Shown: positions 3,272 to 24,279 of the stretch, piece after piece | Numbering within the stretch: the stretch's first letter is position 1 | Layout of the letters: the number at the start of each line of letters is the position of its first letter | NCBI GenBank assembly: GCA_025201365.1 | Contig: JAIXMF010000119.1 | Location: forward strand, 1-36,262 | From: Syncephalis plumigaleata | Taxonomy: Eukaryota > Zoopagomycota > Zoopagomycetes > Zoopagales > Piptocephalidaceae | Length of the DNA: 36,262 bases | Reading direction: 5' to 3' | The notes under the pieces: generated by a model | The model's input: the letters and a program-made list of their open reading frames with translations, nothing else | What the model was told of the DNA's origin: nothing | Databases searched by the model: none | Made by a program: the position numbers and the translations under genes

Positions 3272-4928
3272 TTAAGCATTCATGTAGCTGGCCTTGTCAA
3301 TTGTCTCGGGCATTTCAGTAATGCTGACTTCAAATCGACCTTGTACCTTGTCCAATGTCGCTGCATCTTCCTCGCTAGCTACGAAAGTAATGGCCAAACC
3401 CTTGGTACCGAAACGACCAGCACGACCAACCTAATCATCATCATCATCATCATTATCATCATTAGTAAACACGTAATAGAACGAGATTGCTCATTTCACT
3501 TACTCGATGCAAATAGGTATCAGGTCCGTCTGGCATATCGTAATTGAATACAATGTTAACACGTTCAATATCGATACCACGTCCAAATACATCGGTGGCA
3601 ACCATGATACGCTTTCTAAAGTCTTTGAATGCCTCGTAACGAGCAATACGCTCCTTTTGTGGCATTCTACCGTGGATGCAAATGCTAGGGAAGTTGGACT
3701 CTACGAGCAATTTGTTCAAGCCATTGGCACGCTCGACTGACTTGACGAAAATGACGATCTGGTTGAATTCGAGCTCGTCGAGCAAGTTGCTCAGCTTAAG
3801 GTTCTTCTCGTCTTCTTGTAGTTTAACGTAATGTTGCTGCAAACCGTGCAATGTCAATTTCGACTCGGCATCTACGTAAACCTCAGCTGGCTAATGATAA
3901 TACAACGCAATAACGTTAGAATGAAGCGAGAGTGTATACCGTATTGGATTAACATGGTAAGAAGATGATATACTTACATTGTTCATGAATCGTTTGCAAA
4001 TCTGACGTGTTTCCTCGCTTAGTGTAGCGCTATACATCATCACTTGTTTGTGATGAGGTGTAGCACGGAAGATCTCCTGAATGTCACGACGCATATCTAG
4101 CAGTATATAGTAAGTGGGAGTTATGTATGGTTAATATATAGGTATGAATCTCGTTATAGACATGAATCAACCTACCTAATTGATCGAGCATCTTGTCGCA
4201 TTCATCTAGAATGAAATGCTTCAAGTTACCAACGCGCAACGACTTGTCCTTGATCAACGCCAATATACGACCTGGCGTGCCAACAACAATATGTGGGGTT
4301 TTCGCCTTGTCGCGCAATGCATCTTGATCTTCGCGAATAGGTACACCGCCGTAGAAGACACTGATGCGTGCCTCTGGCAGATACTTGCTAAAACGATTGT
4401 ATTCATTACGAATTTGGAAGGCCAACTCGCGTGTATGGCACAAAACCAATACACCAACTTCATCGACCGAGGTATCCACTTGTTGCAAGGAAGCAAGGAC
4501 GAACACGGCAGTCTTGCCCATACCCGACTTGGCCTGGCAGATGACGTCCATACCGATGATGGCCTGAGGAATACATTCCTGTTGGACTATAAGCGATAAT
4601 TGCGTCAATTTAAATGATTAATCTCGCGTTTATCAATTATTATAACGCGTGCAGTAGTAGTAGTCTCCTTACCTTCACTTGGATGTTCAAAACCGCAATC
4701 GACAATTGATCGCAACAATTCTGGCTTCAGTAGGAAATCACGGAAACCGGTGGAGTGGATACCGACGTAGCTTCCCTTCTTGTCTGCTTCACCTCCCGTC
4801 TCACCGGATACGCCATTGCCTGCGGTGGTCGCATCGGTTCCAGGTGCGGCAGCCACGGCATCGGCCGTCTCGGTACGGATTGCCTCGACTTCGTCAAAGT
4901 CCAAAAGTTCTTCTGTATGATCAGCCAT
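3272..4928 (-). CDS. SUB2: DECD-box ATP-dependent RNA helicase, mRNA export and splicing (UAP56/Sub2)
   Basis: Five exons (4673-4928, 4176-4586, 3978-4096, 3504-3890, 3272-3430) encode 443 residues, the normal length. Walker A is AKSGMGKT at residues 104-111. The Walker B motif is DECD at 213-216, the hallmark of UAP56/Sub2. SAT lies in exon 3, the ARGID-like segment reads GRGIDIE, and motif VI is [10 protein letters not shown] at 390-399, split by intron 4. The N-terminal half of exon 1 is a variable acidic and Ala-rich leader. Family knowledge: it loads on pre-mRNA during spliceosome assembly and, within TREX, hands mRNA to export factors in the nucleus. It is divergently arranged with TIM44, about 1.2 kb apart. 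Confidence 0.96.
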
Positions 4929-6151
4929 GATGCTTTACTTTAATGGCAAGTCAATATAAAGATAATCAATTGTAAGTGAATGCTAGATGGGTTTTACCAC
5001 ATAGTGGTAGTGGTAGTAGCAGTAGTTCAGTGTGTAAGCAGGATTGTCATCGCTGATATGTTGCTGCTACTGTCGCCGCCATCATCGTTATATTTCAGTT
5101 ATATCATCGTTATTAGATGCTATTTATCCATAATTGCAATCGAAAATGACTACAACGGTAACTGTCTCGTGTATAGGTTGACGTAGTGCAAGTCCTAATC
5201 TACACGCGGCCAACAGTGGAACAGGACGTGTTTATGCGTATAGAACACGTACACACGCACGCATATATATATATATACGTATACATGTATATATGACCAT
5301 TGTAACGACGGCAATAACCGAAAGTATCGCCCGTCATTCAGGATCGACACGCGTCATCTAGATCGCGTTCTACGGGTGTAGTAGTAGCATATGTGCATCG
5401 CACAAGCATGGATCCAAGGTGCATCTTTTTCTCGTTTCTCTTCCAGTGTGTTCATTGCTCTAGCGAGACCACACTCAAGAAAGACGTCGCAAACATAGAT
5501 AACAATAGAAAAGAATAGAAAAATGATCGTCTTCTATGACACGCGCGCGTGTGTGTGTATATGCTCCTTTATCCCTCTCTGTTGCAGTGCACCGAATAAC
5601 GCGTGATGGCGACGAAAGCGGCTGTTGCGAACGACATTGCTTGAACACTGCAGCGCATACCTATTATAAACGTGTGTGTTGATGCTTGTACGGTCCTTTC
5701 GACTTGACGAACAAAAGATAAACAGGCTAATCGGAAATATGACGACGACTATTCGACAACAAGGGAGTAACAGTGAAAATAGTGAGGGAAAGAGCAAAAT
5801 AGGAGAGAAATGGATGAATGGGTGGGTGAGTGTGAGTGAGAATGTGAGTGAGAGAAAGGAGAGAAAATAGACACACGCGCCACTGCCACTCAATCATTCA
5901 CCCTATTCATAACTGACGACACACACACATGCCTGTAATAATGAGTAATGAGAATAATATGATAGTTTCAATTAGTTTAACAGTTTTACCACGTACAATG
6001 TATTAAACCATTGCTTGTTAGACATTCGTTCGATCATTGAAATAACTAGATAACGATCATGATAATAGTCGGCTTTTTATGAACACACAAAAAAAGCAAA
6101 TCTACTACATATTATTTGTTTCTTTCACGCGTGTACAACGAATCTTTTAGT
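4929..6151. other. Divergent intergenic region between SUB2 and TIM44
   Basis: 1.2 kb with no convincing gene. It carries both promoters. I see low-complexity stretches: alternating TA near 5261-5295, a TG run near 5549-5558, and a purine-rich GAGTGAG tract near 5820-5866. The open frames here lack start context, conserved motifs or plausible splice partners. Confidence 0.5.
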
Positions 6152-8069
6152 ATGGCTACTCAACGACTTTTAACGCGTTCCCCCGCTGCTTCTTCGGTGT
6201 TTGGCACCGCTTCTGTCGCCAGATCAGCAATGCGATCTACTTCGTTGATTCGTCAAATGAATCAAGGTCAGGGACCTGCTTTGAGTGCAGCACCACGTCA
6301 TGCCTTCAATAGAGGACCAGCCACCATGGTGGTACGACATAAAAGTGCACTGGCACGTTTTATGGAATCTATTCGCGAGCAGGTCAAGGAGAATCAAGAG
6401 TTCCAACAAAATGTGAAACAACTACAAGATAAATCTTCGGAAATCGCAGAGTCAGAGTCAATGCGTAAAGCTCGCGAAGTATTGGATAAAGCCAAGGTAT
6501 TTGGAAGAATGATGTTTTACGAGTCACTCCCTAATACATATCTATTTGACAGGCGGATGCTAATGTTCGATCAGAGAAGCTGCGTAAAACGGTAGAAGAA
6601 GTGAAAAAGGGTGCCGATGTAGTAGGCGAGAAGGTGCGCTATGTAGCCAAGGAGATTGGCGATACAAAGTTTGCACAAGCTAGCAAGAAAACGGTAAGTT
6701 CATCATGATAAAGAAAGAAAGAGATGGTAATTACAGGATTAACTAATGAAACGATCATGCTTGTATAGATTAATAAAACGGCATCCGCAGTGGCTGATAC
6801 ACTCGATAAAACCACTGAACCCATTCGACAAAGTAAAGCGTACAAGGAAGTCAGTGGTCAAGTCAAGGATTATGTCGACGAGACGAGTTCACGTTATGGC
6901 GGCTACATTCCTAAGGAGCGACGACGTAAATCTATCTATGAGATTAGCGGACAGGATGCCTTGAGTGGACGTCGTACGGAAGCAAATGCCGAGTAAGTTG
7001 ATCTAGCATAGAATCATAGATGGAATGCGAGATGACTAACGTATAAAAAACGAACAATACCTAATAGAGCGGGTGAATCGGTTGTATTGCATAAGGATTC
7101 GGCTTGGAAGGAGAGTTGGAAGAAGTTTAAAGATAGCAATACTGTAATGCAAGGTACTTGGATATTCGATATAGCATCTTATGCTATACACATGCCACGT
7201 ATTTACACTAAGCATTATCCTATAGGAATATTTAATATAAAGCGCAATTATGACGATAGTGACAATGTTATGATTCAGTACACTCGCGCGATTACCGAAC
7301 GAGTATCCGATACATTTAGCTCTATATTCTCAGAGTCAGAGAATGCCGTGGCTATTGCCCACTTGAAAGCAACGCTAGATCCTAATTTCAACCTTGAAGT
7401 GTTTATGCGACAAGCACGAGAATTTATCATTCCCGAGGTTATCGATGCCTATCTACACGGTGACACGGACACGCTACGTCTATGGTGTTCTGAAGCGGTG
7501 AGTACGCTTTAATAGTGACGACTTTAGTAATAGTAGTCTAGGATCAATCACTAATAGTGTACATGATGATGATGATGATGATGATGATGACTGTGTAGAC
7601 ATTTAACGTATTGACAGCGGGTATCAAGGCACAAATACAGCAAGGATTAGTTAGTGACTCGAAGATTCTTGATCTACGTAATGTCGAGGTAATTTATTAG
7701 TATACATTATTTGTGTATCATTTGCGAATGACATCTAACGAATGCAATATATCTATCTATCATTTAGTTTATGTCGGCCAAATTACTCGAGAATGATATA
7801 CCCGTTATTGTTGTTTCCTTTAATACGCAAGAAATCCTATTGTTTAGAAACAAAAAGACCGGAGAACTAGTACATGGCAAAGAGGTAGGGAAATTAACTG
7901 GAATAAACAAAAAAAGATACGAATTACTCATTTTACATACTAGGATCATATCGAACGAGTTTACTACGCTTGCGTATTCACCAAGACCGAGGAAGATCTA
8001 CAGAACCCGATCACCGGCGGTTGGCGTATTATTGATATGGCCAAGCAAGGATCACGACCAACATGGTAG
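6152..8069 (+). CDS. TIM44: Mitochondrial import motor subunit Tim44
   Basis: Eight exons (6152-6496, 6553-6693, 6769-6992, 7068-7153, 7226-7497, 7599-7688, 7768-7884, 7944-8069) give 466 residues. The N terminus is an Arg/Ser/Ala-rich matrix presequence (MATQRLLTRSPAASS). A charged coiled-coil region follows from about residue 65, then the Tim44 C-terminal domain with SDTFSSIFSE and LDPNFNLEVFMRQ, ending GGWRIIDMAKQGSRPTW. Family knowledge: it tethers mtHsp70 to the TIM23 channel on the matrix face. Translation starts at the ATG at 6152; an upstream open frame has no ATG. The 72-base intron 4 (7154-7225) is in phase and stop-free. A Fanzor transposon begins only 124 bases after the stop. Confidence 0.95.
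7563..7590 (+). repeat. ATG/GAT trinucleotide microsatellite in TIM44 intron 5
   Basis: About nine tandem ATG units within the intron at 7498-7598, just upstream of its 3' splice site. Probably a neutral, length-variable tract. Confidence 0.8.
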
Positions 8070-8193
8070 TGTTAATTTAGTTACGTAAAAGAGAGCAGCA
8101 ATACATCAAGGAATAGGCACGCGCGCATATATATATATATGAGTGTGTACGTGTGCGTGTGTGTATGTAGACGTGCTATAGCACCATCAACTA

Positions 8194-8221
8194 CAGACTT
8201 TTTCCATCCAATTTGCGTAGT
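8194..8221 (+). repeat. Terminal inverted repeat, Fanzor 3' side
   Basis: Reads CAGACTTTTTCCATCCAATT and continues TGCGTAGT. It pairs with the reverse complement of 12449-12476, with mismatches at positions 4-5 and after GCG. The same end occurs at 23619 in the short relative. Confidence 0.85.
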
Positions 8222-8307
8222 TAGCCATTTGTTTTATGAATAAATAATAGTTATGATAATAACACTTACGTATTTTTAAGCGGAATAATTGGCGATAACC
8301 ACCGCGG
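8194..8307 (-). ncRNA. Candidate omega/fRNA scaffold at the 3' end of the Fanzor gene
   Basis: In described Fanzor and TnpB systems the guide-RNA scaffold overlaps the nuclease gene's 3' end and untranslated region and runs to the element end, with the guide copied from adjacent host DNA. Here that is the minus strand from the stop codon at 8308 through the terminal repeat at 8194, with the guide beyond 8193. The matching stretch is retained in the short relative at 23619-23726, including a conserved GTAAGTGTT word and the segment next to the repeat. I infer the RNA from position and conservation; no fold was computed. Its 5' end is unknown and may lie inside the coding region. Confidence 0.4.
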
Positions 8308-10663
8308 TTAATTTGATTTTTGTTGTTTGGACCCCCGTTGTCCTTGTCCTTCTTTCTTTGAACGTTTAGAAGGAACGGCACCTCGTCGGAATTGTGTTGG
8401 AATACCGTTTCCATTGCGAGCACTGCGGATAATCTGAATAAAATTCAGACATGCAGCCATATCCCGATTCCACAAACGATGCTCGAATTCTTTAATTGGC
8501 TTGCCGTCTTTATCCATCTCGACCTTCTTGTTCTTTACGTCCTTCGTGCCCTCTTGATTCTTCTCGTCATCCACGTCCATCATATCCTCTTGCTCCTCCT
8601 CGTCATCTACGTCCATCATATCCTCTTGATTCTTCTTCTTCTTCTTGTCCTTCTTAGCCTTTATATTCTTCATGGCCTCTTTACAAGTTTGATGTGTGCA
8701 TCTAATAAAATAATTAATTAATATATTATGATAAATAGCAAAGTGTAATAAATTGTACTTACCTTAAAAGACCATGTCGAATAATTTTATGGCTGTCTTC
8801 ATGTTTCTTGGGTCGAGGATTTGTGACCATCTTGAACGTCTCAAGTGTGGGATTGTTGCAAGTTGGGCAGCACTTGCTGGTCATATACTCATCAATTAGA
8901 AAGACTTTAAAATGATGTCGTCGTAAAAGTCTTCTAAAGCCAATACCACGTATGGGCTCGTGGTATTTGGCGTGAGGAGCAGACCAGTTGCCCATCACAA
9001 AAACCGCATCCTTCTTGAACTTATCAGTCAGCTCATGGATCAGCTTCTGATCACTCTGTTGTTTGCTGATGTATGCTGACAGTTTCAACTTCCTGAAAAG
9101 AGGATGTTGGGTAGAATGGGCGGAGGGGAGGGTGAGAGTATCTCGGTAAAAGCTGGTGAGAACATCTGAGTGCTGTGCGCGACACTTCAGATAGTCCTCA
9201 TATTCCGGTAGAGATACCGAGTTGCCCTTAGTTCTTGAGAGAGCCACCTCGGCCTGCTGCACCGCCTGGTTCCCCTTCTTGCACTCCTCGCGAATCTTGC
9301 GGTATTTCTTCGTCCTCCGTGTCTTGTCTTGACATGACTTTGTGTACCGATATTTGATCGGCTCTTTTACTGTCGAGTTTTCGTGTACACAAAATAGTAA
9401 ATCCCTTCTTCCTGGGTCCACGGCCACGCATTTGTCTTTGAACTTCTTTTGCGCCGTAACACTTAAGTCGGTGAGATACTTGAAAGGCTTCTCTGTTGGT
9501 TTTGCTGCTGGTGACTTCGCTTCCCCTTCCTCGGTGTCCTCGTCCTCGTCGTTCTCGTCGTCGTCGTCATTCTTGTCGTCGTTCTTCTTTTCGTTCTCCT
9601 TTTTCATCTTCTTGATGACCGTGACACCAACGCCATCGGTGTCAATCGAGCCAGAAAACTTGAGCTCACCCCTCATTTGAGGATCGAACGGCTTCAACTT
9701 GAGATTCACGGCATTTCTCCAATGTTCCTCCATATGATCTTTACCCTTATACGCGCATCCTAATATGTTGTGACAAAGAATAACGGTGTCAATGTGGACG
9801 TAACACGGTGAGAAGGATCGGCGCAGAGGAAAGCAGTTGAAATCCTTTAAGTCGAGGTCTTTAAACAAGCGCGCAAGCTTAAAGAACGCCTTAAAGTGCT
9901 TCACAGGGCGCGCTACACAGTCGTAATAACGGCCGTTTTTACCGAATTCATAGCGCTCAGGGTAAGCACTTAAAACAGGCTCAAAGATGTTGAATGCCTC
10001 AGTAAGCTTAGGCTCTTTCTTAAATGTCGTTTTACGTACACCTCGCTCGGCTATTGCCACCTTGAATCTCCTTACTTCCTCAGTGATTTCCTTACTGATT
10101 TTTTTGCGAAGCTCAGTTTCGGTTAATTTCTTGTAGAATTGCTTCCTCATATCCTTTACCCGCTTCTTGACATCGAAGTGCTTGTTGACGGCACGCCGAA
10201 GGAACTCGCCAAAGCGCAACCTGACGTTGTTGGTGTAAGCGACGTACATCTTCCTTGCCTCATAAGTTGCTGATTGACCAGCATAGAGTAACACCAGCGG
10301 TTGATAGCGAGCAATGCGAAGGTAATCATCCAAATGGCTATAGATGACTGCGCGAAATTCTGCTGTTGTGCCTTCGGTGTGCTGTGTTTCCCGCTGGATT
10401 AATGCAAGCCATACTTCTTTGAAAAAGCCTACACTTATATACTTTTCGAACCTAAAGTCTTTCTTATCAAGTTCTTTAAGTAGGATATGTTTCGCGAAGG
10501 AGTAGGCGTGGAAGGTCGTGGTGTGTACAATGTTTACAAAGTCGCGTAAAACACCACGACGCTCCTCCTTCCAACCAATGCCAGAAAGCGAAGACTTCAC
10601 AGCCAGAACTCGTTCACTGTCGGCAGAAGTAGACGAGCCATGAGTGCCTGGCTGTGACGCCAT
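8308..10663 (-). CDS. Fanzor nuclease (eukaryotic TnpB-like RNA-guided DNA endonuclease)
   Basis: Two exons (8763-10663 and 8308-8701, with a 61-base GT-AG intron) give 764 residues. RuvC-I is VAVDPGRRDLLF with Asp416. The usual RuvC-II Glu strand reads VFVMGNWSAP (about 554-563) with no Glu. A substitute Glu592 lies in LIDEYMTSKCCPTC, directly before the zinc ribbon (Cys599, Cys602; second pair Cys635 and Cys640, created by splicing). RuvC-III is WNRDMAACLNF with Asp714. This shifted Glu is a known Fanzor hallmark. About 400 N-terminal residues are helical and basic, the likely RNA/DNA-binding part. Acidic low-complexity inserts lie before RuvC-I (about 351-381) and before RuvC-III (about 660-690). 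Lys-rich stretches may act as nuclear signals. All catalytic residues are intact, so it may be active. Start: the ATG at 10663. Confidence 0.92.
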
Positions 10664-12225
10664 GGATGAAATGGATGGATATCAATGCAATAGCAGTATG
10701 TTAAAACGAGCACAGTTACAATATGAAGGGTTAATTAATCTTTTATTTTATTGTAGTATAGACGCTTCTTTATATACGTGGCATGCTGGTAGTACTAACT
10801 GCGTGGATCTGATGACGTAGGGGTGAAACGCTCGTGCAGACACATACAGGAAGGGTGAATCTATTATGGTAAGTAGTATCATTTACAGCGCAACACAGTA
10901 AGACTCGTATCATCTAGTGTCATTGTAGCAATGGTATAACGCCGCTTAGAACACAGCAATCAGTAAGCATTAATGAGTACTAATGAACTTGTTAATACTT
11001 TATTAATGAAAGATTCGTTATTAATAAATGAACAGAGTCTTGTAATGGGTGTTAATAAATGTATTAACTTCTACTAGTGCTTCCATTAGCAACTTCTCCT
11101 TAACTATTTGTTAACACCTGATTAATGGTTTACCAATACACTTCCAAGTATTCATTTCATCGTTGCTTTTCTTTCCCCTTTCCCTTTACTTCGTTATCTA
11201 CATTATTTCCTCCTCCTTTACTTCGTTAACAATTCTAATACATTTCCATTCCTCATTATCGACTGATGTATAAATTGTTAATTTTCTTTATTAGTCAATA
11301 AAAGCATTCTTTCTCTCTCTTTACTAATGCTGTCTTCTTCGTACTAATCTCACTTCCCTTGTCATTCAGTAACACACTTATTTGTGTCAACTACATTCTA
11401 GTTGTTTCTTTTCTTTTATTTTCCTTTTCTCTCTCTTTAACAACACACATTCAAATTAATTTTGACTCTCCCCTTATTGATTGTGAGGGATAAATAAGTT
11501 GTTGTTTTTTCCCTTTCTTCAATAAAGACCTTATTCTATCTCTTTAACAACACACACGTCTACTTCCTCTTAACTATATGCTAGTTATTCCTTTTCCTTC
11601 TATTTACCTATTCACTTTCTCAGTAATACGCGTCTTCTTCGTGTCATTCACATTCCACTTACTTCCTCTTTCACTCTAGCATACACATTCCCAATAGCAG
11701 CTATTCTGCATACTATCTCTATGCCGTTTATTTATCTCTTTGTTTTCCTCTTGCTCTAAACTATCTACATGCTCACTTGTCGTTATTATTACTATTCCAA
11801 TAAGCATTGTTTATTGCTCGTTCTAGTCCTTTGTCTTCTATCACTGTACTGCTTATTTATCAATGTTCAAGCGTTTACTGCTCTCGTTGTAGTATGCACC
11901 TTTCGTTTTTACCACTCTTTCCCGTCATCTGTTTGTATGCCACCAATATGTCATGTTTTTATTTGTATTTTTATTTGTTTACTGCCATCTACATACTCTA
12001 TTCACGGCATACAAGCATACACTGCCTCTTCAAATAAACTGGCATGTGTTCATGCACCCTTCCTTGCTCATTCCTTGCTCATTCATGACAAGTCAGTCAT
12101 TCTACTAGTTACTGCTTGTTTATTACATTGTTTATCGTGTATTCTCTTTGTTCACTCGTTGCTACTTATATGCAATTAACCGTAAGCATTATCATCATAA
12201 CTTATCTAGCATACTAGTTTATTAC
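10664..12225. other. Non-coding interior of the Fanzor transposon, 5' of the nuclease gene
   Basis: About 1.56 kb with no supported gene. Its plus strand is strongly T/C-rich (many CTTT, TTCC and CTCTCTT runs) and so purine-rich on the Fanzor coding strand. It must contain the Fanzor promoter and leader. Much of it (about 11100-12225) recurs, closely similar, in reverse orientation in the element at 18650-19806. Open frames such as 11769-12179 do not stay in one frame between the two copies, so I treat them as chance. Confidence 0.6.
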
Positions 12226-12476
12226 TACTTGTAAGTACATGACATGGCAATATCCAATTATACTAGTACACTTGTATCGTATACCTTATAGAATTGATGA
12301 TGATAGTTATCGCTATCAATATAGGATCCATTACTGAATACTGAATTGTTATTATTATCGTGCTGTACCAATTGGCATTTCTATAATGATAATGGTGTTA
12401 ACAATCGTGTAAATCTATTTATTAATAAAGAGCAAATGTTAAAGGATAAATGCGCAAATTGGATGGAAAAACACTG
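12226..12476. repeat. Conserved 251-bp end module with terminal inverted repeat and hairpin
   Basis: This end is shared, with the same length of 251 bases, by all three elements (12226-12476, 18650-18900 reversed, 23946-24196). It contains the terminal inverted repeat (from about 12449) and a hairpin at 12293-12320 whose arms read ATTGAT...GATAG and CTATCAAT. Collinearity without net insertion or deletion suggests a functional end: transposase binding sites, or the nuclease promoter in the full copy. Confidence 0.75.
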
Positions 12477-12691
12477 TATTATCTAAAAAATACATTTTAT
12501 TATCACATATAAACGATTAGTGCTACGAGCAAATAAGTGATTTTATTATTAGTATTGATTAGTTGTATACAAGAGATCATTCTCTCCTATATACAACTAA
12601 TAAGATGGATCATCATTATTCGTACATGACATGTTACGCGACGATTAAATGTTTGCTTTATTATTAAACGAGTGCACCGCTTTCACCGCCA

Positions 12692-12991
12692 TTACCAAGT
12701 ACTCTTCATAACACCGGGTAGTTGACCGTTTAGTGCATGAAGACGGAACTGGAAGCGACACATTCGGAAATCACGTAAAATACCACGACCACGTCCAGTA
12801 ACGATACAACGGTTGTTCACCGCTGTTGGTCGCGTATCGCGGGGAAAACTATTCAAGGCTAGTTGAGCTTGATGGCGAATTCGCGTTGGTAATTGCTCGT
12901 TACGTATGATATAGCGATATGCCTGTCGTTGTACCTCGGCCGCAGACACACTAGTCCGAATACGGATATCTCGTAGAATACGTGATTTCAT
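12692..12991 (-). CDS. MRP2: Mitochondrial small-subunit ribosomal protein uS14m
   Basis: A single exon encodes 99 residues. The C-terminal half carries the S14 signature NNRCIVTGRGRGILRDFR followed by LHALNGQLPGVMKSTW, the usual protein end. The N-terminal half is basic (MKSRILRDIRIR). The zinc-binding Cys pairs of some bacterial S14 forms are absent, as is normal for the longer mitochondrial type. Family knowledge: it binds 16S-like rRNA in the mitoribosome small-subunit head. The length matches bacterial and fungal mitochondrial homologues. It shares a 310-base divergent promoter region with CLF1 and converges with TIM44 across the inserted Fanzor element, whose end is 215 bases past its stop. 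Confidence 0.93.
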   Translation of the reverse strand: MKSRILRDIRIRTSVSAAEVQRQAYRYIIRNEQLPTRIRHQAQLALNSFPRDTRPTAVNNRCIVTGRGRGILRDFRMCRFQFRLHALNGQLPGVMKSTW

Positions 12992-13301
12992 AGTTAACTA
13001 GCTATAGTCGTCTCGCGATAACGTACAAGCTTACAGTGTGAATCTAACTGATCAAGATCAAGATTAGGAAAAAAGAATAAGAATCACATACAAGCTTGAT
13101 GATGTTGATAAACGCGCCTATTACACATTTTAACAGTTTTCCTTTAGTCCTCCTTAGCTTCACCTGGCTTTACTTGTTTATTTGCCTGTTACACTCGTTG
13201 CTATTAAACTCTCCCTCTCTCCCTCTCTCTCTCCCTCTACACGCACACTGATAATATCGTTATATATTATTATTATTAGTAGTAGTATTATTGGTGACAA
13301 T
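12992..13301. promoter_or_regulatory. Divergent promoter region of uS14m and CLF1
   Basis: 310 bases between the two start codons. There is no clear TATA box. A CTCTCTCCCTCTCTCT-type pyrimidine tract lies before the CLF1 ATG. The short distance makes a shared bidirectional promoter likely. Confidence 0.45.
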
Positions 13302-16300
13302 ATGGAGCAACAACAACAGGAACAAGTGCCCGGTGGCTATGATCGGGGTGGACGGGTGCCCAAGGTAAGCAGTTCGCTTGGGCAATTAACTGGATAGATA
13401 GAATTGGAATGGCACTTACACGTCATCCGTATGAATCATAGATCAAAAATAAAAATCCAGCACCTGTCCAGATCACGGCAGAGCAGCTTATGCGGGAAGC
13501 GCATGAGTTCCGTGAGGTAGCTGTGGCGGCACCACGGCAAAAGATCACAGATCGCGAGGAACTCAACGAGTATCGTATGCAAAAGCGTAAAGCATTTGAG
13601 GATATGGTGCGACGTAATCGTATTCACATCGGTACCTGGCTTAACTATGCTGCTTGGGAGCAAAGTCAAGAAGAGATACCACGGTAAATGGATCATTAAT
13701 ATAGACGACGATAGTGACATCTTGATGCAGTTAGCGTACTAACAATATGTATGTAATGAATTAGAGCGCGTTCTATTTACGAACGAGCACTGGAAATTGA
13801 TTCGCGTAATGTCACCCTGTATTTGAAATACGTGGAGATGGAAATGAAGCATCGTAACATCAATCGAGCGCGTAATTTATTCGATCGTGTAGTATCACTA
13901 CTACCACGAGTCGATCAATTCTGGTGAGTAGAATAGCTGCCTGTGCTAATATCCCAATAAATGCACTATTCTCATGTGTTAACACTGGGCAACAGGCTTA
14001 AATACACGTATATGGAGGAGATGCTGGGTAATGTCAATGGTGCACGTCAAATATTCGAACGATGGATGCAATGGCAGCCCGATGAACCAGCATGGATGGC
14101 CTATGCCAAAATGGAGATGCGATACGATGAGGTGGATCGTGCACGCGCCATTTATCGACGATTCGTGCAGGTGCATCCCATGACTAAGAACTGGTTGAAA
14201 TGGGTCAAGTTCGAGGAGGACTTGAACAATATCGGTAAGTAAAGATTGGTGAATGAATATGACAAGATTATATATTGATAATGAAATGCAATTGACATAT
14301 TATCAGAGCAAGCGCGTGAGATATTCGATCAAGCATTCCAATTCCTAGGTGATGATCATATGGATCAAAAGTTAGTAATTGCTTTTGCTAAATTTGAAAC
14401 AAAACAACGAGAGGTAAGCTAGAGCAGAGTAGAGTAGAGTGGATATTACGCAACATTACGCTAACATTTATTAGTATGAACGAGCACGAGCCATTTACAA
14501 GTATGCACTGGAGAGAATGCCGAAATCAAAGGCTGAAGCACTTTACAAGCAGTACACGCAATTCGAGAAACGATTTGGCGACCAGAATGAAATTGAGACG
14601 GTCGTCACCGCTAAACGACGTGTTCAGTATGAGGAGGTGAGTAATTACGCGAATGCAACTATGCTGCAGCCATTGTTACTTATTACTGTAATAAACATAG
14701 CAAATAAGAGAGAATCCACGCAACTACGATACATGGTTTGATTATGCTCGACTAGAAGAGGAGGCAGGAGATCCGGAACGAACACGCGACGTATATGAAC
14801 GAGCTATTGCGCAAATTCCTCCATCGGACGAGAAACGACATTGGAGACGCTACATTTACCTTTGGATCAATTATGCATTGTACGAGGAACTAGTAACAAA
14901 GGTAGTGTGCAACATATCTATCATTCGACTCACAACGTTAACTAACCTTCAAACATAGGATTATGAGCGTACTCGTCTAGTATATCAAGAATGCTTACGA
15001 CTTATTCCTCATAAAAAGTTTACATTTGCCAAGATCTGGCTAATGGCTGCGCAATTTGAGATTCGTCGCTTAAATATCACGGCAGCGAGGAAAACACTAG
15101 GCATGGGCATTGGTAAGAGGACATAACATACCATCTTATGGTGTACGAATAAGTAAATAAATATACGAATATACGTATAGGTAAGGCACCGAAACATCGA
15201 CTATTCAAGGGATACATTGAATTAGAACTGGAGGTAGGTATAACTGGACAAGTAATATATCGAGCCATAGTAAATCAACTAATTCTATATATGTCCGCCT
15301 GTAGTTACGTGAATTCGATCGATGCCGTACCATTTATACAAAGTATCTGGAGTTTGATCCCGCTCATTGCACGGCATGGATTCGATTTGCCGAATTGGAA
15401 CGATCATTGGGTGATGATGATCGTGCACGTGCGATATTCGAATTGGCTGTCAGTCAGCCTGCATTGGATATGCCCGAGTTGCTATGGAAGGCATATATAG
15501 ATTTTGAATTTGAATTGGGCGAATTTGAACATACACGCAAACTTTATGAACGCTTACTACAGCGAACGGAACATGTCAAGGTAGTGTAGATGTGGCATTG
15601 CGATAACAATAATAGCAATGATAGCCAAAGAGAGTACATTGATAGCTAACGCGACAATACATGAATGGTAACATTAGGTTTGGATTAGTTATGCGCAATT
15701 TGAACTAGCAGCAAGTGTATCGGAGGAAGAGGACAACAAGGCACTTGTGACGGAGCGTATAGCAAGGGCGCGCAAGACATTCAAGCGTGCGTATGATAGT
15801 ATGAAACAACGCGGTCTTAAAGAAGAGGTAACAGTCATCAGTGGATTATTGTGTATCATCTAAGATTGACTAACACCATATTGGTATCAATTACGAATTA
15901 GCGTGTTTTATTATTGGAAGCGTGGCGTGAAATGGAAACGCAGCATGGCACATCAGAGACTCAGGAGCAAGTCAATCGACAAATGCCCAAGGTGGTCAAA
16001 CGACGTAGAAAGGTGGAGGAAGGCGAGGCAGTCGGTGGAGCAGGTGGCGATACATGGGAGGAATACTACGACTACATATTCCCTGATGATGATACGCAAC
16101 AACAGAAGCTTAAACTACTTGAACTGGCTCATCAATGGAAGGTACGTAGAATGATAACAATGTGAATAGAGTAATATCATTTGCTTACAATTATTATTGA
16201 TTATTTCTATTAGATTAAATCAGAGCAAGCTCTAAGAAACAAAGAATCCAATCAAGGTGAAAGCGACGAAGAGTCAGAAGAAGAAGAGTCAGAAGAAGAA

Positions 16301-16312: not shown

Positions 16313-17614
16313 TTTAGATGTTTTATGTTTATCCTATAAATCATTGATTGCTCTGTAATGATGAAAGCATGTAGATGTAGGGGGATTTTCTTTGGTCTAT
16401 AATACATGATTACACAATATTGACCATATAGTAGAATCCTAATGGTATATTGCTATAATCATGACTTTTACAATTCTATCTTGATGATACGAGTAAATAA
16501 TACCATGTGTTTTTACATGCTTTCATTAAGGCCTTGAAGCATATTACTTTTAATAGGACTACACCCAAGTGTAGGAGTGTTATTGTCATTTAGAAGAAAA
16601 AGCACGCGAGTAATTGAGTAAACAGCACTTCATCAATCATGCAGCATTACGCGCACTGACTACTTACCCAAATGGGACCCATTAATTTACGCATTACTAC
16701 TCTACTACCATGTCATTAAGGCTATTCATGAATGATTGTTTCAAGGTTTACTCATACAATCATTGCTTGTTTGTTCGTTCGCTTGTTCGTTCATTTGTCT
16801 GAACGACAACGACAGGCCTGTAAAGTATTGTTCCCTTGAAACGATAAGTGGTTGATTGTCTACTTTGAATGTGTAAAACACAATTTCTTTATTTTTTAGG
16901 TCCCCTTAGCAAGTTATTCGCCTTTACTTTTGTTCCCACATCGAAAGCAATATTGACTAAAAGTGAATACTACTCACTATTACAGCGGGATATTTGGTTG
17001 AGATTCCAATGAGGAACAATAACCAATGCACATATAGAATATGTATGTATATATTATACAACACATTAGTGTATAGCAAGTTAACGCAGGTACAATAAAG
17101 TGAACAATTGTCAGCTGAAATTACCATTTAAGGATACGCCTATGCTCAAACAAGTCTTTCATGTAATGCATTACCTTGTTAATCCGTGTAATAGGGGAGG
17201 ATACACCACCCGAGTATCATTATCTACATGTTTGTCTGTGCTACAATGAACCATGGACTATGCCGTTTGATATCGTTATCTACGGAGGCCATTCTATCTT
17301 GTCTCATGGACATTGAACTCGTTATTGTGCTTGTCAATAAAGTGGAGTGAATATATTTTCATTATAGAAGCACTGATGACATGAAGGTATAAATACTCGT
17401 CGGATGATGACCGGTAAACGATTATTATTCACTCATCAATACAAACGCCTTCATCGCAACGATACCCTAGACAGTGCTTACTGACTTACTCACTTTGACT
17501 CTCTTCTCTTCTCTTCTCTTCTCTCAACGACTTTTCTCCTGCTCCTACGATCTAAAAACGACAGATTTTATTCCTAGGCTGCGCCCAACGAATTCAACCA
17601 TACAAATCAGAAAA
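16313..17614. other. Intergenic region between CLF1 and the LPMO-like gene
   Basis: 1.3 kb without a recognisable gene. The first part is the CLF1 3' region. The last 230 bases are the LPMO-like promoter and leader, with a TATA box at 17388-17395 and a CTCTT-rich leader near 17501-17525. Confidence 0.5.
17388..17395 (+). promoter_or_regulatory. TATA box of the LPMO-like gene
   Basis: TATAAATA lies 227 bases before the ATG at 17615, implying a leader of roughly 190-200 bases. Confidence 0.55.
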
Positions 17615-18343
17615 ATGACTCGCTTCGCCTCCACCTCCTCAATGATGACTCTATGCGCCATCGCGCTTACCGCACTCTCGGTCGTTTCCAGTGTGTCCGC
17701 TCATGGCTACCTAACAAATCCGTCTCCTCGCGGTATCCAGAAGGCCAACACCCAAGTAGACGACTTGAAATCGCCCAACACCAGGGGTGTTTGCCGTGGT
17801 GAACCGGCCGGTCAAGTGCACTCCGTCGGTCACTCGGTCACCCTTGACTTTAAAATTACCGCGCCACACATTGGTATGTGCGAGGTGTACATTCTCGATG
17901 AGAATCTCGGCAATCCACGCAAGATCGCCTCGAAGGACGGCTGTGCCGCTCCTGGCAAGGAAGGTCCGTGGACTGTTGACATTCCATCGGATATCACCGG
18001 TCGCAAGGTGTTGCGTTGGATGTGGAACGCCGCTCATCTAGTAACCACCATTGAACACTACGAGCAATGTGTCGACCTCAACATCTCCGGTGGTGGTGGT
18101 GGTAGCAGCGCTCCCCCCACTGAAACGAAGAAGAACGATGGCGATACTCCTGCACCAGCCAGTCCACCCAATGCCCCTGCCGCCCCTTCGACTCCAGCAT
18201 CCGGTGGAAGTTGCAATGACGGCGAGTTCAAGTGTAACGGTAACAAGATCGGACAATGTGCCCACAAGTCTTTCGTCTGGACTACTTGTCCCTCTGGCAC
18301 CCAATGCCGTGGCTCCGGTAACGCCATCTATTGCGGTTTTTAA
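17615..18343 (+). CDS. Secreted LPMO-like copper protein with C-terminal CBM19 chitin-binding domain
   Basis: A single exon encodes 242 residues. Residues 1-29 are a signal peptide ending SVSA, so the mature protein begins with His30 (HGYLTNPSPRG), as required for the copper histidine brace of lytic polysaccharide monooxygenases. The second brace His is probably His85 in PHIGMCEVYIL, a pattern like AA9/AA11 enzymes; Tyr149 in HYEQCVDLNI fits the axial position. A Gly/Pro/Ala/Thr-rich linker (about 159-197) leads to a six-cysteine CBM19-like module at 198-242 (CNDGEFKC, GQC, CPSGTQC, YC). I infer action on chitin outside the cell, such as wall remodelling or use of chitinous prey or substrate. 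I cannot assign the AA family with certainty. The frame is open upstream without an ATG, so 17615 is the start. Confidence 0.85.
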   Translation: MTRFASTSSMMTLCAIALTALSVVSSVSAHGYLTNPSPRGIQKANTQVDDLKSPNTRGVCRGEPAGQVHSVGHSVTLDFKITAPHIGMCEVYILDENLGNPRKIASKDGCAAPGKEGPWTVDIPSDITGRKVLRWMWNAAHLVTTIEHYEQCVDLNISGGGGGSSAPPTETKKNDGDTPAPASPPNAPAAPSTPASGGSCNDGEFKCNGNKIGQCAHKSFVWTTCPSGTQCRGSGNAIYCGF

Positions 18344-18411: not shown

Positions 18412-18649
18412 CCATTATACTTTACAATCTACACAGTAAATCTAAATGAATGTATGATATCGTAGTATACATTAAGATTGACTAATAACATCACTTTTAT
18501 TCAATGTGCCTTAATCATTGATGTATATTGCACTTGTAAAGACTAAGTTTGACTTTTAATCAAAATCATCTCTGCATATTACTGATAGTTGCATTTGCTA
18601 TTTATATTTGATAGAACATGTATTATTGGATAAAGCAGTAATTAAAGTA

Positions 18650-19806
18650 CAGGGTTTTTCCAACCCATTAGCGCAGTTAATCTTTAGCATTTGCTTTTTA
18701 TTAATAAATGATCTTGGACAATTGTTAACACCACTATTACCATAGAAATGACAATTGACACAGCATGATAATAATAACAATTCAGTATTAGTAATGGATT
18801 ATTTATTGATAGCAATAACTATCATCATCAATTCTATAAGGTAGACGATACAAGTGTACTAGTATAGTTGGATATTGCCATGTCATGTACTTACAAGTAG
18901 CTATTAGTTAGCATGATAGATAAATCATGATGATAATGCTTACGGTTAACTGCATAGATAGTAACGAGTGAACAAATAGAATACACGATAAACAATGTAA
19001 TAAACAAGCAGTAACTAGTAGAATGACTGACTTGTCACGAACGAGCAAGGAACGAGCAAGAAAGGGTGCATGAATACGTATGTCAGTTTATTCGAAGAAG
19101 CAGTGTATGCTTGTATGTGGTAAACAGAGTATGGAGATGGCAGTAAACAAATAAAATACAAATAAAAGCATGACGTAAGGGTGGCATACAAACAGATGAC
19201 GGAAAAGAGCAGTAAAAGTAAAAGGTACATATTACAACGAGAGCAGTGAACGCTTAAGCATTGATAAATAAGCAGTACAGTGATAGAAGACAAAGGACTA
19301 GAACGAGCAATAAACAATGCTTATTGGAATAGTAATAATAACGACAAGTGAGCATGTAGATAGTTTAGAGCAAGAGGAAAACAAAGAGATAAATAAACGG
19401 CATAGAGATAGTATGCAGAATAGCTGCTATTGGGAATGTGTATGCTAGAGTGAAAGAGGAAGTAAGTGGAATGCAGTTGACACGAAGAAGACGCGTATTA
19501 CTGAGAAAGTAGATAGGTAAATAGAAGGAAAAAGAATAAATAGCATATAGTTAAGAGGAAGTAGACGTGTGTTGTTTACTGACAAGTGGAATGTAGCTAA
19601 TACTAAGAAGACAGCATTGGTAAAGAAGTAAAGGTAGATAGATAGAATAAAGTTTTTATGTAAAGAAGTAAAGGGAAACAACAATGAAATGGACACTTAG
19701 AAATGGATTAGTAAATCATTAATGTCATTAGACACTAATAACAAACATGTCAATTATTCGTAAAAACAAAAAAGTATAACTACGCAAATTTGTTGGAAAA
19801 GTCAAG
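18650..19806 (+). mobile_element. Non-autonomous relative of the Fanzor transposon (1157 bp, reverse orientation)
   Basis: Bounded by CAGGGTTTTTCCAACCCATT at 18650 and a degenerate reverse-complement end near 19806, with TA on both sides (18648-18649 and 19807-19808). From 18650 to about 19700 it corresponds, reverse-complemented, to about 12476 down to 11100 of the full element: the end module plus the region 5' of the nuclease gene. The whole nuclease gene and its 3' region are missing, except for a stretch resembling the other terminal repeat (TACGCAAATTTGTTGGAAAA, 19781-19800). Its ends are more diverged than those of the other two copies. It lies between the convergent LPMO-like and Ser/Pro repeat genes. 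Confidence 0.8.
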
Positions 19807-19825
19807 TAGTAAATAAAGCATGCAG

Positions 19826-19857: not shown

Positions 19858-21129
19858 TTAGTAGCCTGATTTGACATCACCATCTTTGCAATCAATGTCA
19901 TTGCCATTACTAGTGGTGCTTCCACCCGAGTTGGTAGTAGATGGTGAGTTTTTACCTTGACTGCCTCCAGAGCTAGTAGCTGGCGGGTTCGAGCCATGGT
20001 TGGTGGCTGGCGGGCTGTTGTTGGTGCTTGGTGGTGGGTTTTTGCCTTGACCACCCCCAGAGCTGGTAGCTGGAGGATGTGAACCATAATTAGTAACCGG
20101 AGGGTTGTTGCTCGTGCTTGGTGGTAAGTTTTTGCCTTGACCACCCCCAGAGCTGGTAGCTGGTGGGTTCGAGCCATGGCTGGTGGATGGAGGGCTCTGG
20201 ACTTTACCACCTCCAGAGCTAGTAGATGGAGGATGTGAACCGTAACTAGTAGCTGGCGGGCTGTTATTAGTGCTTGGTGGTGAGTTTTTGCCTTGACCGC
20301 CTCCAGAGCTGGTAGCTGGTGGATTCGAGCCATGGCTGGTGGATGGTGGGCTATTGTTGGTGCTTGGTGGTGAGTTTTTGCCTTGACCACCTCCAGAGCT
20401 GGTAGCTGGAGGATGTGAACCATAATTAGTAACCGGAGGGTTGTTGCTCGTGCTTGGTGGTAAGTTTTTGCCTTGACCACCCCCAGAGCTGGTAGCTGGT
20501 GGATTCGAGCCATGGCTGGTGGATGGAGGGCTCTGGACTTTACCACCTCCAGAGCTAGTAGATGGAGGATGTGAACCGTAACTAGTAGCTGGCGGGCTGT
20601 TATTAGTGCTTGGTGGTGAGTTTTTGCCTTGACCGCCTCCAGAGCTGGTAGCTGGAGGGCTGTTGCTTGTGCTTGGTGGTGGACTCTGGACTTGACCGCC
20701 ACCAGTACCGGAAGTGGGCGGGGTAGATTTTCCAGGAGTAGTAGTTCCATAGCTTGTTGATGGGCTGCCAGTGGTGTTACCGCCAGAGCTATGCGTATGA
20801 GTTGCCGGGGTACCAGTTTGCTGACCTCCTCCATTAGTGGTATTGGTACCTGTACCATTACCGCTATTGTTGCCTGTATTTGTTGTGCTAGTGTTGGGTG
20901 TATTAGGCTTGCCATCCGTACGTCCGCTGTCGCCGCTACCGTAGCCGTCATAGCTACTCTGGCTTGATGCTTGTCTATTTCCACCAAGACTGAGACCAAT
21001 CGAGGCTTCAATGCCGGAACCAGAGCCATTTCCCGATGACAAAAGACCAAGCAAGGGCGCGGATTCTACATTATGCTCAAGCGCAGCAATGAGCATAGTA
21101 GTGGCGATAATAAGAAATGTAGCACGCAT
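19858..21129 (-). CDS. Secreted Ser/Pro/Gly/Asn-rich tandem repeat protein, 423 residues
   Basis: A single exon. Residues 1-24 are a signal peptide (MRATFLIIATTMLIAALEHN, cleavage likely after ESA). A Ser/Gly region follows, then an Asn/Thr/Gly region, then a long array of related modules such as PPATSSGGGQGKNSPPSTNN and PPSTSHGSN. The tail contains one Cys (NDIDCKDGDVKSGY). There is no transmembrane segment or clear GPI signal. The composition suits a heavily O-glycosylated wall or extracellular matrix protein; that is inference. A 336-base (112-residue) higher-order repeat is duplicated at 19985-20656. A TATA box lies upstream at 21274-21281. A second frame is also open through the array, a by-product of repeat composition. 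I do not recognise a family. Confidence 0.78.
   Translation of the reverse strand: MRATFLIIATTMLIAALEHNVESAPLLGLLSSGNGSGSGIEASIGLSLGGNRQASSQSSYDGYGSGDSGRTDGKPNTPNTSTTNTGNNSGNGTGTNTTNGGGQQTGTPATHTHSSGGNTTGSPSTSYGTTTPGKSTPPTSGTGGGQVQSPPPSTSNSPPATSSGGGQGKNSPPSTNNSPPATSYGSHPPSTSSGGGKVQSPPSTSHGSNPPATSSGGGQGKNLPPSTSNNPPVTNYGSHPPATSSGGGQGKNSPPSTNNSPPSTSHGSNPPATSSGGGQGKNSPPSTNNSPPATSYGSHPPSTSSGGGKVQSPPSTSHGSNPPATSSGGGQGKNLPPSTSNNPPVTNYGSHPPATSSGGGQGKNPPPSTNNSPPATNHGSNPPATSSGGSQGKNSPSTTNSGGSTTSNGNDIDCKDGDVKSGY
19985..20656 (-). repeat. Two tandem 336-bp higher-order repeat units
   Basis: The sequence GGATGTGAACCATAATTAG at 20075 recurs at 20411, and the flanks match nearly perfectly for about 245 bases and well beyond. 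The period is 336 bases, exactly 112 codons, so the frame is kept. Each unit contains several shorter degenerate modules. Near identity implies recent unequal exchange or gene conversion. Outer limits are approximate. Confidence 0.85.
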
Positions 21130-21281: not shown

Positions 21282-22165
21282 AGCCTACGCGATAATGTAG
21301 ACATGCGCATAACAATGACCTGTGTGCATTGAGTGATAGGACACAATGAAGGAAACGCGCTAAGTATACGACAATATCTGCCATTTATAATAGAGCTCTT
21401 TGTTTAATATGAAACATTAACAAAAAGAATTGTAGCTGTATCACGCTATGCAACCATATGGAACAAAGCGATTAACGGAGACTAATTGTACATGGAACGC
21501 TTTATTGTTATGGCTATGCAAGTGACTGAAAAAGCAAAAAGAATCATTCGATGTTGCTTTGTTTAATGTAGAAACAATACAAATGAAGCCCGTTAACGCT
21601 GTATTACTTTCAAAGATGATACTAATGAATTATTAATAGATAGTAGCATAATTAGGGTGAAGATTCAATGAACATGTGGATTCCATTGTATTCTTCAATC
21701 GTATTATGGAGGCATCATAAGCCATAATCAAAGGCGCATCAATTATCACGTAGTAATACGATGCTTAGCACAGTAATGATGAAATCTGCAGGAAACAAAT
21801 ATACGCACACTCCTGCGCATCCCGTTAGATAATGTCCATTATATTCAGCGGATGACGATGTCTATTCTATCAGTGTAACGAAAGAAAACCGATATCATCA
21901 TTATCTCATCAGTGAATTGGCTGAACAATTCAAACTACGCAATTACCCTTTTCTCATATTTGTCAAGCTTATACGCATGCACTTGAGCGCGTCCATGCAC
22001 AACCACCATCGTATTCTGTAATAGCAGCGTTATTGATAGTAGCTGCACCCCTTTGTTATTATTGTTGTTTATCTCATTATTCCCTTATTGTATACTAAAG
22101 TGGGTGCCCACTCATACGAGGTCCTCGAGTATTAAAACGCAGGTGACGCGACACAACTAGTCCAG
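21282..22165. other. Intergenic region upstream of the glutaminyl cyclase gene
   Basis: About 880 bases between two divergent genes; no gene recognised. It should carry both promoters. Confidence 0.45.
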
Positions 22166-23560: not shown

Positions 23561-23618
23561 AAAGATATAGAGAGGAAACGTGTATATTCTGTGCCAATTG
23601 AACGTGGAAACCAATATA

Positions 23619-24196
23619 CAGTGTTTTTCCATCCAATTTGCGCAGTTAGCCTTTTGTTTTTATGAATAAACAATTGTTAACACTTACAACTAGCCTGTAT
23701 TTTAGATGATTGACGATACAATCTGGTTAATTTGTTTTTTGATGTTTGGATCCCTCTTGATCTTGTCCATCTTGATCTTGATCTTCATTTAGTGAATGCT
23801 TGGCGGATGTACCATGATCAGGAGGAGAAACGGCATGTCGTTGAAATTGTGTTGGAACACCCTTGTCCTTACGAACACTGTGAATAATCTGAATGAAGTT
23901 CAGACATGCAGCCATATCACAATTCCATACATGCTAATCAATAGCTACTTGTAAATACATGACATGGCAATATCCAACTATACTAGTACACTTGTATCGT
24001 CTACCTTATAGAATTGATGATGATAGTTATCGCTATCAATAAATAATCCATTACTGAATACTGAATTGTTATTATTATCATGCTATATCAATTGGCATTT
24101 CTATGGTAATAATGGTGTTAACAATTGTGTTAATCTATTTATTAATAAACTGCAAATGTTAAAGGATAAATGCGCAAATTGGATGGAAAAACACTG
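23619..24196 (-). mobile_element. Fanzor mini-element (578 bp) retaining the RuvC-III end and both termini
   Basis: Bounded by CAGTGTTTTTCCATCCAATT at 23619 and its reverse complement ending at 24196, with TATA on both sides. Bases 23619 to about 23935 match 8194 to about 8480 of the full element (3' end of the nuclease gene, untranslated region, terminal repeat). Bases 23946-24196 match 12226-12476. Everything between is deleted; the junction near 23935 may involve a CATGCTA-like microhomology. The terminal repeats are the best preserved of the three copies, so this one may be recent or recently mobile. It lies between the QPCT-like stop and the CDK10 start, and so forms the proximal CDK10 promoter. 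Confidence 0.87.
23727..23933 (-). pseudogene. C-terminal Fanzor remnant containing RuvC-III
   Basis: Minus-strand codons read HVWNCDMAACLNF, then a basic/polar tail, and stop at 23727. This aligns with residues 710-764 of the full nuclease, including the RuvC-III Asp. A TAG closes the frame upstream at 23934-23936, at the deletion junction, so no nuclease can be made. The tail differs from the full copy by many substitutions and by length (for example PPDHGTSAKHSLNEDQDQ replaces a shorter stretch) yet stays open. That suggests it comes from a different Fanzor lineage and not from this window's copy. Confidence 0.82.
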
Positions 24197-24279
24197 TATA
24201 AAGTAAATTCTCTTATTTGTTGTTTACACTTGTTTGTTCAATTCCTTCCTTCCTTCCTTCCTTGCTACTCGTTGTAATC

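Follow-up and report, generated by a model that had tools for sequence, protein, structure and literature searches.

The window analysed here, a 36,262-nucleotide stretch of Syncephalis plumigaleata DNA (contig JAIXMF010000119.1, hereafter C23), contains a gene for a protein resembling the Fanzor RNA-guided nucleases. The locus raises the question of whether this protein is an intact Fanzor that could be active, and of how its carrier element relates to the many related elements elsewhere in the same assembly. The features on which the analysis draws are collected in Table 1.

We joined positions 10663–8763 to 8701–8308 and obtained a coding sequence of 2295 nt, corresponding to 764 residues and a stop codon, in which no internal stop or frameshift was found. 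The first-pass annotation had described an uninterrupted frame encoding a 764-residue protein with Asp416, Glu592 and Asp714, and the spliced translation agrees with it; the canonical RuvC-II strand also reads as had been claimed, free of Glu. Of the 21 loci examined (the window counted), 20 share an intron of 60–61 bp at this codon, and exon 2 of the remaining locus, L030, was not found by the search. Splicing joins HGLLR to CTHQTC, where the solved Fanzor1 proteins of Parasitella parasitica (PpFz1) and Spizellomyces punctatus (SpuFz1) read HGLLRCKNMSC and HGLLGCTNPNC. The window intron is thus supported both by its shared position among the loci and by the joining of the two zinc-ribbon halves as in solved relatives.

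Among PDB proteins, the best phmmer match of the spliced protein was PpFz1, and the E-value of 1.1e-109 places this match far beyond chance; SpuFz1 was also matched (E = 5.1e-38). A profile built from 17 exon-1 proteins of this genome gave E-values of 1.8e-140 for PpFz1 and 5.8e-52 for SpuFz1, and additionally reached the Fanzor1 of Guillardia theta (GtFz1, 3.3e-7). At E-values up to 1, this profile matched no TnpB, Fanzor2 or Cas12 protein in PDB, and besides Fanzor1 only one unrelated protein was found (E = 0.7). The significant matches were Fanzor1 chains only, which groups the protein with the Fanzors, as the annotation had proposed, and on these alignments the window protein is a Fanzor1. 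The Pfam TnpB-type zinc-ribbon model scored 12.4 bits on the window protein, below its cut-off of 26.3, and had no match in the whole genome, a result that is plausible for a divergent, intron-split Fanzor1. The exon-1 protein likewise had no meaningful match in Pfam, NCBIfam or PHROGs.

The residues D416, E592 and D714 align with D383, E541 and D606 of SpuFz1 at one consistent numbering offset in the sequence alignment. The metal ligands reported for SpuFz1 are D383, E541, N385 and D606 (PMC10432273); the fourth, N385, corresponds to Gly418 of the window protein, as in the DPG of PpFz1. The DPG motif is present (D416-P-G), E592 is followed by six residues and then by C599-x-x-C602, in the pattern ExxxxxxCxxC, and the RD of RuvC-III is R713-D714. 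The zinc-finger cysteines C599, C602, C635 and C640 are all present, and the TDG motif (T342, D343, G344) is invariant in 17/17 aligned exon-1 proteins; both the ExxxxxxCxxC pattern and a TDG motif in the WED domain are described as Fanzor1 features (PMC10711439). The annotation had called the glutamate relocated. Its place beside the zinc ribbon stands, whereas the wording does not, since a Glu at this place is a published signature of Fanzors and of IS607 TnpB relatives (PMC10711439); the moved Glu is the ordinary Fanzor state and nothing unusual.

Table 1. Positions of the features discussed (window coordinates unless a locus is named)
Feature	Position	Strand	Basis or remark
Fanzor-carrying Tc1/mariner-type element, 4283 bp	8194..12476	minus	TACAG...CTGTA bound the similarity shared by the copies
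Left-end inverted repeat with TA, TACAGTGTTTTTCCATCCAATTTGCGCA; the A before it gives ATA, the predicted cutting motif	12451..12478	minus	comparison of copies
Right-end inverted repeat with TA, TACAGACTTTTTCCATCCAATTTGCGTA (read inwards)	8192..8219	plus	comparison of copies
Noncoding left-end block	11552..12476	minus	mean divergence 7.7% (3.5-9.9%), 66 pairs of copies
Fanzor1 exon 1 (residues 1-634)	8763..10663	minus	ORF and spliced translation, sequence search
Intron, 61 bp, GT-AG (GTAAGT...TTAG)	8702..8762	minus	splice consensus; same codon in other loci
Fanzor1 exon 2 (second zinc knuckle, acidic insert, RuvC-III)	8308..8701	minus	ORF, alignment to solved Fanzor1 proteins
Asp416 codon (RuvC-I, VAVDPG)	9416..9418	minus	aligns with SpuFz1 D383
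RuvC-II canonical strand VFVMGNWSAP (residues 554-563), without Glu	8975..9004	minus	translation
Glu592 codon (LIDEY)	8888..8890	minus	aligns with SpuFz1 E541
Asp714 codon (RuvC-III, WNRDM)	8461..8463	minus	aligns with SpuFz1 D606
Hairpin just after stop codon, stem changing in step between copies	8280..8305	minus	comparison of copies
Stretch of 3' conservation with CTGTA at its end, putative scaffold of a guide RNA (omega RNA)	8192..8275	minus	conservation among copies
Flank adjoining right end, candidate guide (17 nt)	8175..8191	minus	with its TA, one further exact copy, C1:2829905-2829923
LPMO_10-like protein gene	17471-18343		Pfam
Fanzor-less ghost, 1.16 kb	18648..19808	plus	end search, comparison of copies
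Ser/Pro/Gly-rich repeat frame	19858-21129	minus	
M28 peptidase-family protein gene	22136-23405		Pfam
Fanzor-less ghost, 582 bp, with remnant of Fanzor C-terminus	23617..24198	minus	end search, comparison of copies
DDE_3 transposase element, possible helper	L031 864-2187 and L034 1895-1935		right end resembles Fanzor element ends

We compared the copies beyond the gene and found that their shared similarity starts at TACAGTGTTTTTCCATCCAATTTGCGCA and stops at the corresponding inverted repeat. Inverted repeats of Tc1/mariner transposons start with CAG; those of the carrier element are of this type, and a TA duplicated at 8192–8193 and 12477–12478 flanks it. No transposase was found inside the element, in which the longest other frame (139 codons) had no transposase match in Pfam. 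Judged from its ends and content, the element is very probably a non-autonomous Tc1/mariner-type transposon with Fanzor1 as its only recognisable gene. Elements of this kind, carrying only Fanzor1 between Mariner-type repeats with TA duplications, have already been described (PMC3627910).

Searching the genome with protein queries yielded 99 matched stretches, which we grouped by hand into about 40 Fanzor loci, haplotype duplicates and fragments included. The 28-base element end, on the other hand, occurred 837 times in the assembly at up to 3 mismatches, against 0 occurrences of the reversed control. These ends correspond to some 400 elements versus about 40 Fanzor loci, and by this count most of the elements must be ghosts, that is, elements without a Fanzor gene. 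On contigs C1–C3, a listed right end lay within 10 kb for 21 of the 30 exact left ends, with spans of 230–233 bp (3 elements), 538–604 bp (10), 1027–1164 bp (7) and 4186 bp (1). The last of these has no Fanzor match and was considered as an autonomous partner, but was rejected as a ghost with a long retroelement-like insert, its frame being judged by eye. Locus L035 is a ghost containing a 3.5-kb frame that resembles reverse transcriptase and RNase H (LINE-like, by eye).

A DDE_3 element, represented by five equal-scoring matches, is the candidate for a helper: its right end agrees with the left end of the Fanzor element at 31/41 positions. Outside TACAG, this match was reached by 0 of 100 000 shuffles, and an unrelated Tc1/mariner repeat of the genome matched at 17/41. 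The left end of this element was looked for and not found, so that one end is known. A search for a transposase with PF03184 returned no match, and neither did its control. Separately, the Fanzor copy of L015 is interrupted (3321–4969 in gene orientation) by another Tc1/mariner element, which encodes a DDE_3 transposase; as a helper it was set aside, because it belongs to another Tc1/mariner family: its repeat matches the Fanzor left end at 17/41 positions, compared with 31/41 for the candidate.

We searched the assembly with the 17-nt candidate guide and its TA and found one more exact copy and three copies with two mismatches. The exact copy lies beside a ghost at C1:2829921-2830473, in a stretch of C1 (L038, C1:2828400-2832000) that is collinear with window positions 6666–14002 and whose flanks are 99.3% and 98.9% identical to those of the window. 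At the same TA site, C23 carries the full Fanzor element and C1 a ghost of 553 bp. The end parts of this ghost match the window element at only 93.1% and 94.5% identity (34/543 differences, versus 27/3037 in the flanks), with the first differences 39 and about 61 bp from the respective ends. Because the ghost aligns gap-free over its internal junction with the 582-bp ghost of the window, it is not simply the window Fanzor element with a fresh deletion. Its ends are nevertheless nearest to those of the window element among the loci compared. A distant part of the window also matches C1, at 98%, with only these two copies in the assembly, the match on C1 lying about 6.6 kb further along than simple collinearity predicts. 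C23 and C1 thus look like two haplotypes of one region, and a large duplication is a possible alternative.

It is conceivable, if improbable, that the two sites are not true alleles, either because assembly went wrong at a repeat or because C23 arose by duplication. Mis-joining may occur at repeats as long as 4.3 kb, the read type is not given, another contig (C61) ends inside such an element, and the two matched places are further apart on C1 than simple collinearity would have them. However, both flanks of the C1 site are present on C23, the element differences begin inside its two ends, and the distant part of C23 matches C1 and no other place in the assembly.

Other haplotype-like pairs of loci were compared in the same manner. 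In L026/L029 and L016/L017 the elements are more diverged than their flanks, 3- to 4-fold and in patches, whereas in L018/L021 the two divergences are equal. In L019/L028 the element shows 0/2332 differences and the flank 24/1489; this apparent homogenisation was not counted as evidence, since C61 ends within that element. Further, most copies resemble one another more closely in their noncoding left-end block than in the Fanzor gene, and the divergence of this block is unrelated to the fourfold-site divergence of the genes (rho = 0.10, P = 0.44; 66 pairs of 12 copies). Taken together, the Fanzor/ghost site, the patchy pairs and the left-end pattern suggest that copies have repeatedly exchanged sequence since they inserted. 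The Fanzor may be the cause of this exchange and is a candidate only, with assembly error at repeats as a caveat.

The extra divergence of the elements could alternatively reflect faster mutation of silenced repeats rather than exchange, an explanation that we consider improbable. In its favour, the haplotypes of 3 of the 5 pairs differ 3- to 7-fold more in the element than in the flanks. Against it, the differences are unevenly spread in the two patchy pairs, with variance-to-mean ratios of 5.3 and 6.5 in the elements compared with 1.6 and 0.9 in the flanks (200-column bins, last partial bins dropped). Moreover, CpG transitions are few in these pairs (16/120 and 15/147), and the independence of left-end and gene divergence also argues for exchange.

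The element ends offer candidates for a guide RNA and for a cutting motif. Just downstream of the gene, the hairpin arms form 11 distinct arm pairs from 19 loci, and their own-pair energy of −6.7 kcal/mol, compared with −5.0 kcal/mol for shuffled pairs, was reached by 66 of 20 000 shuffles. Beyond the hairpin lies a stretch of 81–93 nt, the final part of which is strongly conserved to the element end. RNAalifold gave a nearly absent consensus structure for the 3′ region (−2.6), and an Rfam search of the region found no match; the candidate omega RNA accordingly rests on conservation, position and precedent. In SpuFz1 the omega RNA scaffold comprises 75 nt between the stop codon and the element end (PMC10432273), and the candidate scaffold here sits likewise. 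By this analogy, the conserved stretch is likely an omega RNA scaffold.

The base preceding the TA differs between the two ends. An A was found in 64 of the first 100 listed of the 197 exact left ends, against a background of 0.319. On C1–C3, where the listings are complete, it precedes the TA at 18/25 exact left ends but at 8/36 exact right ends (P = 1.8e-4). The compared Fanzor copies show the same tendency, with 12/15 left and 3/17 right ends (P = 0.001), when L017, L021, L028 and L029 are left out as haplotype duplicates and, for the left ends, also L023 and L024 as degenerate or missing. The cutting motif reported for PpFz1 is 5′-ATN, which the ATA at the left ends here fits (PMC11423790). 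A Fanzor motif would be expected to leave an ATA in one orientation, whereas a transposase preference of a symmetric kind would affect the two ends alike; the ATA could instead reflect a transposase preference or an asymmetry built into the transposase.

In the mechanism that we propose, transcription of an omega RNA would run across the right end and on into the flank, and the first bases after the TA would serve as its guide. The Fanzor would recognise 5′-ATA beside the guide-matching sequence on an empty site and then cut, and repair from the occupied copy would restore or spread the element. Its movement would depend on a transposase acting in trans, for which the DDE_3 element with the 31/41 identical end is the candidate. 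A bolder reading, which we regard as unlikely, is that the element family is continually rewritten through cutting by its own Fanzor. Ghosts and Fanzor genes would then be alternating states at fixed sites: RNA-guided breaks, repaired from other copies, would swap the content of occupied sites between full Fanzor elements and ghosts and also between diverged copies. The C23/C1 site, with flanks at 99% and element parts at 93–94% identity, would be a caught example of such swapping. Among the matches listed in the Fanzor literature (titles, abstract openings and a few full papers), no description of a Fanzor/ghost allele pair appeared. If the swap reading is true, it would show a eukaryote in which the content of elements is exchanged under RNA guidance. 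The window gene itself adds to the known Fanzor1 family; the Fanzor/ghost pair and the patchy copy differences are the interesting part. For the question of what role Fanzors have for their carriers, the genome has numerous uninterrupted Fanzor copies, hundreds of Fanzor-less ends and two apparent haplotypes in one assembly, which make the guide, the cutting motif and element replacement testable at natural sites.

The close comparison covered 21 loci (the window and 20 others), of which 16, the window counted, have an uninterrupted spliced frame; the other five comprise a stop (L013), the inserted transposon (L015), a broken frame (L021), a copy cut by a contig end (L028) and the locus with the missing exon 2 (L030). 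Among the 16 uninterrupted copies, whose proteins range from 711 to 775 residues, D416 and D714 are each present in 16/16 and E592 in 15/16, L023 having Lys. The Ka/Ks values of the 15 other copies against the window copy were 0.36–0.54, and the median over all 120 pairs was 0.46 (range 0.22–0.68), with the haplotype pairs L016/L017 and L026/L029 included, so that not all copies are independent. These ratios indicate that the Fanzor protein is under purifying selection. It is quite unlikely that the window copy is decayed and inactive, intact in looks only and giving way to ghosts, even though the other apparent haplotype has a ghost at the same site, several copies carry stops or insertions, and L023, otherwise intact, has Lys at 592. 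The window frame is uninterrupted, its splice sites are consensus, the full triad and the zinc cysteines are present, and Ka/Ks stays below 0.55 against each of the 15 copies. With an intact frame under purifying selection, the window copy could be active.

It is extremely improbable that the gene is a TnpB or Fanzor2 of recent bacterial or viral origin: the RuvC/zinc layout is common to TnpB and Fanzor2 (PMC10711439), but only Fanzor1 chains of the PDB matched the profile significantly, the gene has a spliceosomal intron, its element has Tc1/mariner-type ends and a TA duplication whereas IS607 elements are described as lacking inverted repeats (PMC3627910), and relatives were encoded by 0/47 pattern-matched stretches of viral contigs and 0/31 bacterial or archaeal ones in scans with two short peptide patterns each, which reach mainly close relatives.

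Among known carriers, the Fanzor-only Mariner-type elements with TA duplication of Bao and Jurka (2013) resemble the window element, whereas the Rhizopus, Phycomyces and Mucor elements named there are of MuDr type with 9-bp duplications (PMC3627910). The Fanzor motif given in that paper, D-x-[TS][TS]-xx-zinc finger-RD, places 5–50 residues between zinc finger and RD; the window protein has a spacer of 72 residues because of its acidic insert, and exceeds the published range. For S. punctatus, 134 ghosts, each of about 550 nt, are reported beside 42 Fanzor loci (PMC10432273). The genome examined here, with about 40 loci, likewise has dozens, and it likewise has many ghosts near that size with related ends. 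The conserved bases before the left repeat of the Spu-1 elements fit the cutting motif as CATA, where ATA is found here (PMC10432273). The Spu-1 elements differ in being about 2.1 kb long, compared with 4.28 kb for the window element with its long noncoding left end and intron; another difference is the 837 near-exact ends in the assembly here.

At the protein level, the catalytic residues of SpuFz1 (PDB 8gkh) correspond one to one with those of the window protein. PpFz1 (PDB 9cf0-9cf3; PMC11423790) is the closest solved relative, with a nearly full-length match, and shares the DPG, the moved Glu and the WNRD motif. Taken by itself, this closeness to Parasitella would suggest a mucoromycotan fungus as the carrier. 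Its FRI domain of about 100 residues, described as binding cyclophilin (PMC11423790), is absent from the window protein, which has 14 residues (509–522) in place of 112. A Fanzor subfamily of this genome, seen at L037 (281–2383), has a Thr/Pro-rich linker there instead. The window protein further differs from PpFz1 by its acidic inserts near residues 360–380 and 646–700.
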